Shown: positions 39,807 to 43,712 of the stretch, in pieces
Layout: each line of letters starts with the position of its first letter
How positions within the stretch are numbered: the stretch's first letter is position 1
Origin: an uncultured Thomasclavelia sp.
Lineage (GTDB): Bacteria > Bacillota_I > Bacilli_A > Erysipelotrichales > Coprobacillaceae
DNA length: 49,578 bases
Reading direction: 5' to 3'
NCBI RefSeq assembly: GCF_944324745.1
Contig: NZ_CALUXO010000070.1
Location: 1 to 49,578 of the forward strand
The notes under the pieces: model-generated
Database searches by the model: none
The model's input: only the letters and a program-made list of their open reading frames with translations
What the model was told of the DNA's origin: nothing
Translations under genes and position numbers: made by a program

Positions 39807-39834
39807 TTGCAAAAAAATAAATATTTGATATGAT
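39807..39834 (+). promoter_or_regulatory. Promoter of the ABC-F attenuator
   Basis: TTGCAA (39807-39812), a 16-base spacer and TATGAT (39829-39834). The RNA should begin near 39841, just before the leader peptide's ribosome binding site. Confidence 0.65.
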
Positions 39835-39856
39835 GATAGAGAAATGAGGTGGAAGG

Positions 39857-39877
39857 ATGTATAAATTTTCTTGCTAA
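39857..39877 (+). CDS. Attenuator leader peptide MYKFSC
   Basis: A six-codon frame with Shine-Dalgarno GAGGTG seven bases upstream. Its last codons form the 5' arm of the first attenuator stem, so a ribosome stalled here by an antibiotic would change RNA folding downstream. Confidence 0.65.
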   Translation: MYKFSC

Positions 39878-40008
39878 AAATTTATTTGCAGTAAGTTATT
39901 TACTGTTTTTGTGCGCAAGAAAATATATCCTTTATTATCATATCTTAATCAAGTTTATCTTTTCTAAGATTTTTTAGGCTACAAGAATATATTTTCTTGT
40001 AGCCTTTT
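39865..40008 (+). promoter_or_regulatory. Ribosome-mediated transcription attenuator of the ABC-F gene
   Basis: Three mutually exclusive arms are exact. Arm 1 (39865-39874, ATTTTCTTGC, in the leader peptide) pairs with arm 2 (39915-39924). Arm 2 extended (39916-39928) pairs over 13 bases with 39987-39999. That last segment is the 3' part of a 12-base terminator stem (39976-39987 with 39994-40005) followed by TTTT. With free translation arm 1-arm 2 forms and the terminator folds; with a stalled leader ribosome, arm 2 captures the terminator and the gene is read. Confidence 0.85.
39976..40008 (+). terminator. Attenuator terminator
   Basis: AGGCTACAAGAA / TTCTTGTAGCCT, a perfect 12-base stem with loop TATATT, then TTTT, 19 bases before the ABC-F start. 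Confidence 0.9.
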
Positions 40009-40026
40009 AACTTGGAGGGGATATAA

Positions 40027-41496
40027 ATGTCGTTATTAGAAATAAAAAATTTAACATTTAGATATGATAATCAAATTGAAGAATTATTTAATAATATAAG
40101 TTTTCAAATCGATACTAATTGGAAACTGGGTTTAATTGGTTGTAATGGTAAAGGGAAAACAACTTTGTTAGAACTGCTACAAAATAAATATTCTTATCAA
40201 GGTTATATTACACCTGGATTTGTATTTGATTATTTTCCATATCATATTAAAGATCCAAATCAGATAACGATTAGTATCATCAATCAAATCGGAGATTTTG
40301 AACGATGGGAGATAGAAAGAGAATTATCACTTTTAGAAGTGAATGAAGATGTATTGGAAAGGCCTTTTAGTACTTTGTCTAATGGTGAACAAACTAAAGT
40401 AATGCTGGCAGCATTATTTTTAAAAAATCACGATTTATTATTAATTGATGAACCAACTAATCATTTAGATTTATCAGGGCGAATAGCTTTAAGTAATTAT
40501 TTAAAAAGAAAACGCAGTTTTATTTTAGTAAGTCATGACCGAAATTTCATTGATAATTGTGTAGATCATATTTTAGCTATAAATCGTAATGATGTTGAAA
40601 TAATCAAAGGTAATTTTACCACCTGGTATCAACAAAAAAATGATCAAGATAACTTAGAATTGAAGCAAAATGAAAAACTGACCAAAGAAATTAAACGATT
40701 AAAAGAAGCCTCAAAACAAAATAGCTTATGGTCTGATAAAGTCGAAAAAAGTAAGAATACTCGAATATCGGGATTAAAACCAGATAAAGGTTATATTGGG
40801 CATAAAGCAGCTAAAATGATGCAACGTTCTAAAAATGTAGCCCGTCGTCAGCAAAGAGCAGTGGAAGAAAAAAAGCAGTTACTAAAGAATATTGAAGTGA
40901 TTGAATCACTAAAAATTAATTGTTTGGCTTATCCTAAAAAACAGTTATGTAGTTTAAATGATGTTTCTCTTTATTATGGAAATCGCCAAATTCTAGAACA
41001 CATTAGTTTTACAATTAATCAAGGTGATCGTATTAATCTCTCTGGCCAAAATGGTAGTGGAAAGACTAGTATAATTAAATTGCTTTTAGCAGAAAATGAT
41101 AATTATCAAGGTAATATTAAAATAGCAAGCAATTTAAAAATATCTTATTTGCCACAACAAGATGGTCTTTCTGGTTCATTATCAAAATATATCGACGAAA
41201 ATCAATTGGATCCTAGTCTTTTTAAAACGATTTTAAGAAAAATGGATTTTTCACGCGAATTATTTAATCAGGATCTAAGCACATATAGTAAAGGACAAAA
41301 AAAGAAAGTGATGTTGGCCAAATGCCTTAGTACACCAGCTCATCTTTATATTATGGATGAGCCGTTAAATTATCTTGATATCTTTACAAGAATTCAAATT
41401 CAAGAGATGTTGCTTAAATATCAGCCTACTATTTTATTTGTTGAACATGATCAATATTTTTGTAGTCAAATTAAAACTAAAGAAGTAAAATTATAG
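40027..41496 (+). CDS. ABC-F ribosomal protection protein, Lsa/Vga/Vml group
   Basis: A 489-residue protein of two ABC domains without membrane segments. Domain 1 has Walker A GCNGKGKTT near 38, signature LSNGEQ near 118 and Walker B LLLIDEPTNHLD near 138. Domain 2 has GQNGSGKTS near 339, YSKGQKKK near 420 and LYIMDEPLNYLD near 440. The linker (about 195-290) is long and basic, with GYIGHKAAKMMQRSKN as in Lsa-type factors. Such proteins enter the ribosomal E site and remove lincosamide, streptogramin A and pleuromutilin drugs. The upstream peptide attenuator fits an inducible resistance gene. Exact drug range is not readable from sequence. Confidence 0.88.
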   Translation: MSLLEIKNLTFRYDNQIEELFNNISFQIDTNWKLGLIGCNGKGKTTLLELLQNKYSYQGYITPGFVFDYFPYHIKDPNQITISIINQIGDFERWEIERELSLLEVNEDVLERPFSTLSNGEQTKVMLAALFLKNHDLLLIDEPTNHLDLSGRIALSNYLKRKRSFILVSHDRNFIDNCVDHILAINRNDVEIIKGNFTTWYQQKNDQDNLELKQNEKLTKEIKRLKEASKQNSLWSDKVEKSKNTRISGLKPDKGYIGHKAAKMMQRSKNVARRQQRAVEEKKQLLKNIEVIESLKINCLAYPKKQLCSLNDVSLYYGNRQILEHISFTINQGDRINLSGQNGSGKTSIIKLLLAENDNYQGNIKIASNLKISYLPQQDGLSGSLSKYIDENQLDPSLFKTILRKMDFSRELFNQDLSTYSKGQKKKVMLAKCLSTPAHLYIMDEPLNYLDIFTRIQIQEMLLKYQPTILFVEHDQYFCSQIKTKEVKL

Positions 41497-41599: not shown

Positions 41600-42480
41600 A
41601 TCTACGCAACATTCATACCTTACTTCAAAACCCACATGTTATCAATCGGTTCTTTCATTAAAAAGGATTCGTTCTAAATTTGAATTGATGTCTCGTTCAT
41701 CTTATTATTATTTAGATTATTTGGTATTTTGTAGAAAACAATTTAAATTATTAATCGAATAACTCTATTTTAAAATTACTCTTGATGAATTTTTGGAATC
41801 AATCCATTTTCCAAATCCAATTTTATAATCAAATTATTATATATATCAAAACTTTTACTATCATAATGATTTTAACTTTTTCTAATTAAATTATCACTCA
41901 TGATTAATTCAGTTCGTTTATCATCATTAATTTAATAATTACTTTTTGCTTTAATTAACTCAATTACTGATTTCTATCAATTAATCAACTTTCTAATTAT
42001 TAATTCATCTCTTTAATAATCTTTGCTCGATTACTAATCTGATTTTGATTTTCATTAAGTAAATCAGCTTTTTAATTATTAGTTCATTTCTTTAATAATC
42101 TTCACTTGATTACTAACCTGATTTTGATCTTCATTAAGTTAATCAGCTTTTTTAATTATTAATTCATATCTTTAATAATCTTTGCTTGATTACTAACTTG
42201 ATCTTAATCTTCATTAAGTTAATCAGCTTTTTAATTATTAATTCATATCTTTAATAATCTTTACTTGATTACTAACCTGATTTTTGATCTTCATTAAGTA
42301 AATCAATTTTGATTATCAAGCTTTTTAATAACTAATTCCTTAATCTCTATTTTCAACTTTCTGATCAATTTTAATAGATTAGTTTTAATTATTAATCTTT
42401 GAACCAGCTTTTTGAATGTTTAGTAGACTAGTATTTGTTATTATGATGATTACTGGTTAATCACTTATTAATAATTTTAT
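41600..42480 (-). pseudogene. Decayed repetitive coiled-coil-type gene (minus strand)
   Basis: No intact frame survives, but the minus strand keeps protein-like pieces: KKLVQRLIIKTNLLKLIRK, KIEIKELVIKKLDNQN, several copies of LNEDQNQVSNQVKIIKEMN, then NLIIKLDLENGLIPKIHQE and HVGFEVRYECCVDYKNKK. They are separated by frame shifts and stops. I infer a former gene with a heptad-like repeat region. Family unknown. Confidence 0.45.
41983..42300. repeat. Tandem repeat, four units of 79-80 bp
   Basis: Units start at 41983, 42062, 42141 and 42221 (AATCAACTTT or AATCAGCTTT) and end in CATTAAGT. A degenerate fifth unit follows at 42301. The extra bases in units three and four are single T insertions in T runs. 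Confidence 0.85.
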
Positions 42481-42716: not shown

Positions 42717-43712
42717 ATGAGAAAACTGATTAAAATTTTGCTGATATTTACAGTGGTTTTTACGATTACTGCTTGTAACAAAAATGATACTAGTGATACT
42801 GTAAAAAATATTGATATTGAATGGAATAGTGATAATAATTTGGCAGATGTTATTAGGTTTAAAATTGAAGCAATTGATACTACTAAACAGATTACACCAG
42901 ATGTGATTGGTGATTCATATACTTATTTTGGACCAGCTGATGAAAATAATTATTTAGTCGATTTAATATTATGGATGACTAATACTACTGATCAGGATAT
43001 TCATCTTAATAGTTCTTTTTCGGGTTTATTTATTACTGAGGATACTAACTACAAAGCGGCTGTTTTATCATTGAATGATGATGGTACTATACTTTCTGAT
43101 AGTGACTTATTGTCGGCTGGATCTACTAAAAAGATTCATTATTATGCTGAGATGCCAGAAAAATCTTTACAAAAAGAAATTGAATTTGAATTAAGTAATC
43201 AAAAGCAAGATTCAGACAAACAAGAGATAAGCCCAGTCTGTGCTTCTTTGAAATTTGAAGTTAATAAAACTAATAATAATTATGAGACTAAAAATATGGG
43301 TGAAGTTATTAATTTGGATGGTTATGCGGATGTTACTTTAACTGGAGCTAATATAATTAAAGAATTGCGTCCGGCTAGTCCTGCTGGACTGTATAATACT
43401 TATACAGTCCAACAAGAAAGTAATAGTTTAGTTGATTTTAGTGTTGTGATTAATAATATTAGTGGTAATGATATTAATGCTGGTAATGTTATCACAGCCA
43501 GATTGCTTGATGTTAATAGTAATTCATATCCGGCAACTGTAGTATACGAAGATGATAATCATAGTAATTTACAGAATGCTACATCAATTACGATAAAAAA
43601 TAATCAAAGCGCTATAATTCATTATCTTTTTGAAGTTAGTGATGAGGTAGTTAATGAAAGTAAAAAGATTAGAATATCTTGGCAGGGAAATGTTTATTTA
43701 ATTAATCTTTAA
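42717..43712 (+). CDS. Lipoprotein with two beta-sandwich domains, 331 aa
   Basis: Signal peptide and lipobox ITACN (Cys20). Two similar domains follow, about 50-190 and 195-330, each with an extended-strand pattern (LVDLILWMTNTTDQDIHLN and LVDFSVVINNISGNDINAG), like DUF4352/DUF5067 lipoproteins with an immunoglobulin-like fold. It is on the outer face of the membrane; its function is unknown. RBS AAGGAG is ten bases before ATG, slightly long. The following terminator and a MATE gene suggest it stands alone. Confidence 0.7.
   Translation: MRKLIKILLIFTVVFTITACNKNDTSDTVKNIDIEWNSDNNLADVIRFKIEAIDTTKQITPDVIGDSYTYFGPADENNYLVDLILWMTNTTDQDIHLNSSFSGLFITEDTNYKAAVLSLNDDGTILSDSDLLSAGSTKKIHYYAEMPEKSLQKEIEFELSNQKQDSDKQEISPVCASLKFEVNKTNNNYETKNMGEVINLDGYADVTLTGANIIKELRPASPAGLYNTYTVQQESNSLVDFSVVINNISGNDINAGNVITARLLDVNSNSYPATVVYEDDNHSNLQNATSITIKNNQSAIIHYLFEVSDEVVNESKKIRISWQGNVYLINL

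Follow-up and report, generated by a model that had tools for sequence, protein, structure and literature searches.

A ribosome-mediated transcription attenuator predicted upstream of an Lsa-type ABC-F gene in Thomasclavelia, with start-stop relatives in Paenibacillaceae

The window, a stretch of 49,578 nucleotides from an uncultured Thomasclavelia sp. (contig NZ_CALUXO010000070.1), carries on its forward strand a gene for an ABC-F ribosomal protection protein and, immediately before it, a compact leader with a short uORF and several RNA arms. The features are as follows.

39807 to 39834, plus strand: putative promoter, read from the sequence, with -35 TTGCAA (39807-39812), a 16-nt spacer, and an extended -10 TATGAT (39829-39834) preceded by TG
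39846 to 39856, plus strand: uORF Shine-Dalgarno region GAGGTGGAAGG, with GAGG at 39846-39849, 7 nt before the ATG, kept in aligned leaders
39857 to 39877, plus strand: uORF ATG TAT AAA TTT TCT TGC TAA, six codons, peptide MYKFSC
39865 to 39874, plus strand: arm 1, AUUUUCUUGC, 5' strand of the anti-antiterminator, within the uORF
39889 to 39905, plus strand: small hairpin CAGTAA-GTTAT-TTACTG in the anti-antiterminator loop, from the fold
39915 to 39928, plus strand: arm 2, GCAAGAAAAUAUAU, partner of arm 1 (anti-antiterminator) or of arm 4 (antiterminator)
39976 to 39987, plus strand: arm 3, AGGCTACAAGAA, 5' strand of the terminator
39987 to 40005, plus strand: arm 4, the terminator loop and 3' strand, of which 39987-39999 pairs with arm 2 and 39994-40005 with arm 3
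40014 to 40018, plus strand: Shine-Dalgarno sequence GGAGG of the ABC-F gene, predicted to pair with bases immediately 5' of the terminator
40027 to 41496, plus strand: Lsa-type (ARE3) ABC-F ribosomal protection protein, 489 aa, from NCBIfam models and structure search

Three helices can form from these arms: an anti-antiterminator of 10 exact pairs (AUUUUCUUGC, 39865-39874, with GCAAGAAAAU, 39915-39924), an antiterminator of 13 (39916-39928 with 39987-39999), and a terminator of 12 (39976-39987 with 39994-40005) followed by a T-rich tail from 40005. The promoter, the MYKFSC uORF, and exact competing helices of these lengths had all been named in the original prediction, and each can be read directly in the sequence. 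The 190-nt leader folds at -61.9 kcal/mol, compared with -32.0 (standard deviation, 3.7) for shuffled sequence (z = -8.2; none of 200 shuffles as low), and a terminator scan found one terminator, with 0.0 expected in shuffled sequence. The promoter hexamers alone were not above chance (5 found and 4.3 expected in the scan); the promoter is credible mainly because a similar pair (TTGnnn and a TATAAT-like hexamer) recurs at about the same position in the relatives whose leaders were compared. Transcription is expected to start near 39841. The hairpin at 39889-39905 is perhaps a pause hairpin akin to SL-2 of vmlR. A search of the leader against Rfam gave no match at the gathering score and nothing convincing at a relaxed threshold. 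A candidate second copy in the same genome was rejected, as the match was to the palindromic terminator itself.

The encoded protein matched NF000167 (ABCF_Lsa_all), by far its best family, over the full length at 694.6 bits; we call the product Lsa-type rather than Lsa because this score lies below the curated cutoff of 750. It also scored 475.9 bits against NF000355, the general model for ribosomal protection ABC-F proteins, which exceeds the cutoff of 380. Among solved structures, Lsa(A) (7nhk; E value, 1.2e-128) is the nearest, and the drug spectrum presumably comprises lincosamides, pleuromutilins, and streptogramin A. Among named genome records, the nearest are from Thomasclavelia; the closest plasmid-borne relative of the gene is mobile lsa(E), the product of which is 55 to 56% identical to that of the window. 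In two other Thomasclavelia genomes (locus L236 in G002 and locus L239 in G007), the ABC-F frame is cut short at an A-rich run, about 286 codons in; the remaining coding sequence lies in another frame and the leader upstream is intact. The split frame may reflect a broken gene, an assembly error, or frameshifting. Downstream of the gene in the window, a 79-bp tandem repeat of 4.1 copies (41981-42310) lies inside the 1.2-kb AT-rich gap that separates the ABC-F gene from an open reading frame at 42717.

The arms are conserved among relatives of the window, and an alignment of 18 of their leaders contains compensatory changes. In these 18 leaders, 99.4% of cells in the anti-antiterminator core are paired, with two-sided change at 2 pairs and no variation at 4 of the 9. 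Pairing is retained in 95.7% of antiterminator cells and 92.2% of terminator cells, each with 17 two-sided changes. Antiterminator covariation was 0.250, compared with 0.133 for shuffled controls, which do not remove the relatedness of the rows, and at most 0.079 for slid controls, which keep that relatedness. All three helices are therefore maintained, and compensatory change is clear for the antiterminator and the terminator. In a larger set of 150 leaders, the extension of arm 2 fits its own arm 4 better than swapped ones (4.95 versus 4.05 of 6; 0 of 200 permutations), a pairing that is absent from the rule used to search for leaders (a Shine-Dalgarno sequence, a start codon, an arm rich in pyrimidines between +6 and +15, and a complement downstream). 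Arm 1 likewise prefers its own arm 2 over swapped ones (0 of 500 permutations), although this pairing is not independent evidence since the rule demands that the arm 1 core be complementary to arm 2.

Folding of partial transcripts, at equilibrium rather than kinetically, predicted a switch. With the start-codon footprint masked (to one base past +16), the antiterminator of the window had a probability of 0.86 to 0.97 when the exposed end lay at 39997-40001, and with no mask the terminator had one of 0.71 to 0.98 at the same ends; masking arm 1 thus shifts the fold from terminator to antiterminator. From exposed end 40002 on, the terminator is favored whether or not arm 1 is masked. Since the antiterminator wins only transiently in the window, the switch must be kinetic, and the choice would fall while polymerase is on the T tract. 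The same behavior was predicted for the 150 leaders, in four classes, with a mask that ended at +16. At 4 nt before the end of the stem, the mean probability of the terminator was 0.80 to 0.93 when free, 0.02 to 0.16 when masked, and 0.79 to 0.86 under a control mask of the same length placed in the spacer instead. It fell below 0.5 in 140 of the 150 masked leaders, compared with 8 free and 18 under the shifted mask. According to these models, a ribosome on the start codon would suffice to flip the switch.

Based on these observations, we consider it very probable that the leader is a ribosome-mediated transcription attenuator through which drugs that halt ribosomes at initiation or immediately afterward induce the Lsa-type gene. 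In the absence of drug, ribosomes would complete the six-codon uORF and depart, leaving arm 1 to pair with arm 2; arm 2 could not then reach arm 4, arms 3 and 4 would form the terminator, and transcription would end at about 40005-40012. With drug present, a ribosome held at the start codon would cover the RNA to about +16, hiding arm 1 and freeing arm 2, which would capture the terminator loop and 3' strand during the stay of polymerase on the T tract and allow read-through into the gene. What is sensed would be a ribosome parked close enough to reach arm 1, and not a peptide. By analogy with the tested relatives vmlR, cplR, are5sc, and tiaA, the inducers would be lincosamides, pleuromutilins, and streptogramin A, with stalling on the start codon. 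Features expected of ABC-F attenuators are present: an ABC-F gene directly downstream, a uORF with a Shine-Dalgarno sequence overlapping the anti-antiterminator, an antiterminator and an intrinsic terminator that exclude each other and are conserved with covariation, and, as judged by folding, a shift toward the antiterminator when the uORF region is blocked. The central claim of the original prediction, a uORF-coupled transcription attenuator in front of an Lsa-type ABC-F gene, is borne out by the three competing arms and their covariation.

The leader had also been described as peptide sensing, and on this point the comparison with relatives disagrees. Specific arrest by nascent MYKFSC, and especially by its conserved Ser-Cys, would stall the ribosome together with drug, as in the macrolide leaders ermCL and MsrDL. 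Ser-Cys does end most six-codon leaders across wide distances, and uORF identity mattered for vmlR induction (PMC9226507, PMC10201436). However, while the other Thomasclavelia leaders examined encode MYKFSC or MYRFSC, codons 2 to 4 vary freely among relatives (MYKFSC, MRNFSC, MIILSC, and MHNASC, among others), and the Ser-Cys ending follows from arm 1, since UUCUUGC at its commonest offset (11) reads U-UCU-UGC in frame. The Ser codon in Ser-Cys leaders is UCU or UCC and never AGY. Where arm 1 has changed, arm 2 has changed to match (UUCUUAC with GUAAGAA, UUCCUGC with GCAGGAA, and UUUCUGC with GCAGAAA) and the peptide simply follows, with UUCUUAC giving MKTVSY and UUUCUGC giving MFNFFCR. Relatives with start-stop, MK, MR, ME, or MN uORFs retain the architecture, and the switch predicted by folding works without a peptide. 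In arrest leaders of the ermCL and MsrDL type, selection is expected to act on the peptide and not on the RNA, which is not the pattern found here. Peptide-specific arrest is therefore improbable; what the leader probably senses is the parked ribosome and not a peptide. Apparent conservation of a short ABC-F leader peptide need not mean that the peptide is the sensor: here, the conserved part is an RNA arm read in frame.

The start-stop uORFs are the extreme case. A stop codon directly follows the start codon in 57 of the 84 distinct Paenibacillaceae leaders (27 UAA, 20 UAG, and 10 UGA), with the start codon and arm 1 kept; the same arrangement occurs at 37 of the 829 other ATGs of Paenibacillaceae regions (4.5%) and in 8 of the 75 distinct leaders of the non-Paenibacillaceae set. 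Six changes are required to explain the start-stop state on the protein tree, and well-supported branches force at least two of them. Start-stop leaders respond to masking as strongly as longer ones, with the terminator falling below 0.5 in 63 of 64. Their Shine-Dalgarno spacing is long, mostly 11 to 12 nt; use of the AUG in these leaders is likely. In 55 of 65 start-stop leaders, the stop codon is paired at all three bases, most often with arm 2. Because these bases usually pair, the early stop may have arisen as a side effect of base pairing. Selection of AUG-stop for early termination was rejected as a separate explanation, as it is not separable from pairing (GURR opposite UUAC gives UAA, UAG, UGA, or UGG).

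Two other explanations were weighed against the attenuator driven by a parked ribosome. If control were mainly translational, the chief lock would be sequestration of the Shine-Dalgarno sequence of the gene, and the terminator would play a minor role, as partly found for cplR, which combines both layers (PMC10201436). The Shine-Dalgarno sequence of the window gene is indeed predicted to be paired, but this pairing was unchanged when the start-codon footprint was masked and was inconsistent among relatives, while the terminator and antiterminator covary. We rejected a Shine-Dalgarno switch for lack of any consistent change in the folds of the window and its relatives, and consider mainly translational control very unlikely. 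Least probable of all is an amino acid starvation sensor in which a shortage of Cys, Tyr, or Phe tRNA holds up the ribosome on the uORF and drug induction is secondary: a ribosome slowed at any of the six codons would cover arm 1 too, but the uORF codons vary, start-stop relatives read no elongator tRNA, and the downstream gene encodes a ribosomal protection ABC-F protein rather than a biosynthetic enzyme.

The window attenuator is genuine, conserved, and of the vmlR/cplR kind. What is surprising is the start-stop form of its relatives. In Bacillus subtilis vmlR (ARE2), a ribosome stalled on the three-codon uORF MIN prevents formation of the anti-antiterminator, and lincosamides and pleuromutilins induce the gene, with stalling thought to occur at initiation (PMC9226507). 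The window leader shares with vmlR a uORF within the anti-antiterminator, a stalled ribosome (here predicted) that lets an antiterminator block intrinsic termination, and an ABC-F target, but it has other arms, the six-codon MYKFSC, and an ABC-F gene of another subfamily. The uORF of Clostridioides difficile cplR (ARE1) reads MR[I/M], and the Shine-Dalgarno sequence of the gene is hidden in the terminator (PMC10201436). Here too the uORF is short and the terminator lies just before an ABC-F gene; unlike in cplR, no consistent switch involving the Shine-Dalgarno sequence of the gene was found in the window and its relatives. The leader of Enterococcus faecalis lsaA likewise places a uORF before an Lsa-family gene, but its published consensus, MAGN (PMC10201436), is unlike the uORF of the window, and in other Lactobacillales homologs examined (e.g., L258 to L269), the leader is unrelated and lacks the UUCUUGC arms. 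Instead, the leader GAGGGATCC...TTGAAAAAnTAAG...GTGCAGATTTTCAGGATTGG is conserved among many of these homologs. Toeprinting of Streptomyces ABC-F uORFs showed start-codon stalling by lincosamides, pleuromutilins, and streptogramin A (PMC12421871), and we infer by analogy that the window leader would respond to the same drugs. For vmlR and cplR, it is an open question whether conservation of the uORF sequence reflects sequence-specific stalling (PMC10201436). The leader described here bears on that question, and its start-stop relatives are a natural experiment on the need for a peptide.

The arrangement had been thought specific to this lineage, which does not hold, as the same arms precede Lsa-type genes across Bacillota and mobile lsa(E). 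We took upstream regions of Lsa-type homologs from genome loci, down to about 48% protein identity, and the search rule found the architecture in 82 of 104 homolog regions and 85 of 108 Paenibacillaceae regions. The rule missed 45 of the 212 homologous regions (about a fifth), a few of them through its narrowness. The architecture precedes Lsa-type genes of Coprobacillaceae, Paenibacillaceae, Sporomusaceae, Lachnospiraceae, and Oscillospiraceae, among others. In four loci (L055, L064, L250, and L015), an additional short reading frame lies between the attenuator terminator and the ABC-F gene. A pattern search of 98 genomes of relatives found the leader in 23, as a single copy in each except for two in G047. 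The G047 copies (L245 and L246) lie near contig ends, with no ABC-F frame after them in the available DNA; all other copies inspected from this search precede an Lsa-type gene, and the idea that the leader also precedes unrelated genes was therefore rejected.

On balance, we lean toward the view that the window leader belongs to a broad and apparently undescribed Bacillota family of attenuators that would sense a drug-parked initiating ribosome by its position alone. The Paenibacillaceae form would work with a start-stop uORF (AUG followed by UAA, UAG, or UGA), needing no elongation, no peptide, and no elongator tRNA. If this is true, the start-stop form would be a direct reporter of blocked fMet release or of a block at the first catalytic step. 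Searching the literature for the leader peptides as text words retrieved nothing relevant.

The same architecture is present upstream of mobile lsa(E), where the uORF reads MYNFSC and is accompanied by UUCUUGC, GCAAGAAAGUUA, and a terminator. Loci L251 and L252, with proteins 100% identical to that of lsa(E), carry this attenuator with the MYNFSC uORF. No published description of an attenuator upstream of lsa(E) was found in the literature searched. The attenuator occurs at 99% identity or more in 106 plasmid records, and 114 records contain the lsa(E) gene, with the position of the attenuator before its lsa(E) copy judged from coordinates in the records listed. The switch precedes lsa(E) on plasmids of Enterococcus, Staphylococcus, and Listeria, and it may help in understanding how lsa(E) is induced. 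In one plasmid record (L247), an IS1216 end lies directly upstream of lsa(E), in the place of the attenuator. Loss of the attenuator from mobile lsa(E), an idea based on this one record, was rejected, as the attenuator is retained in the 106.
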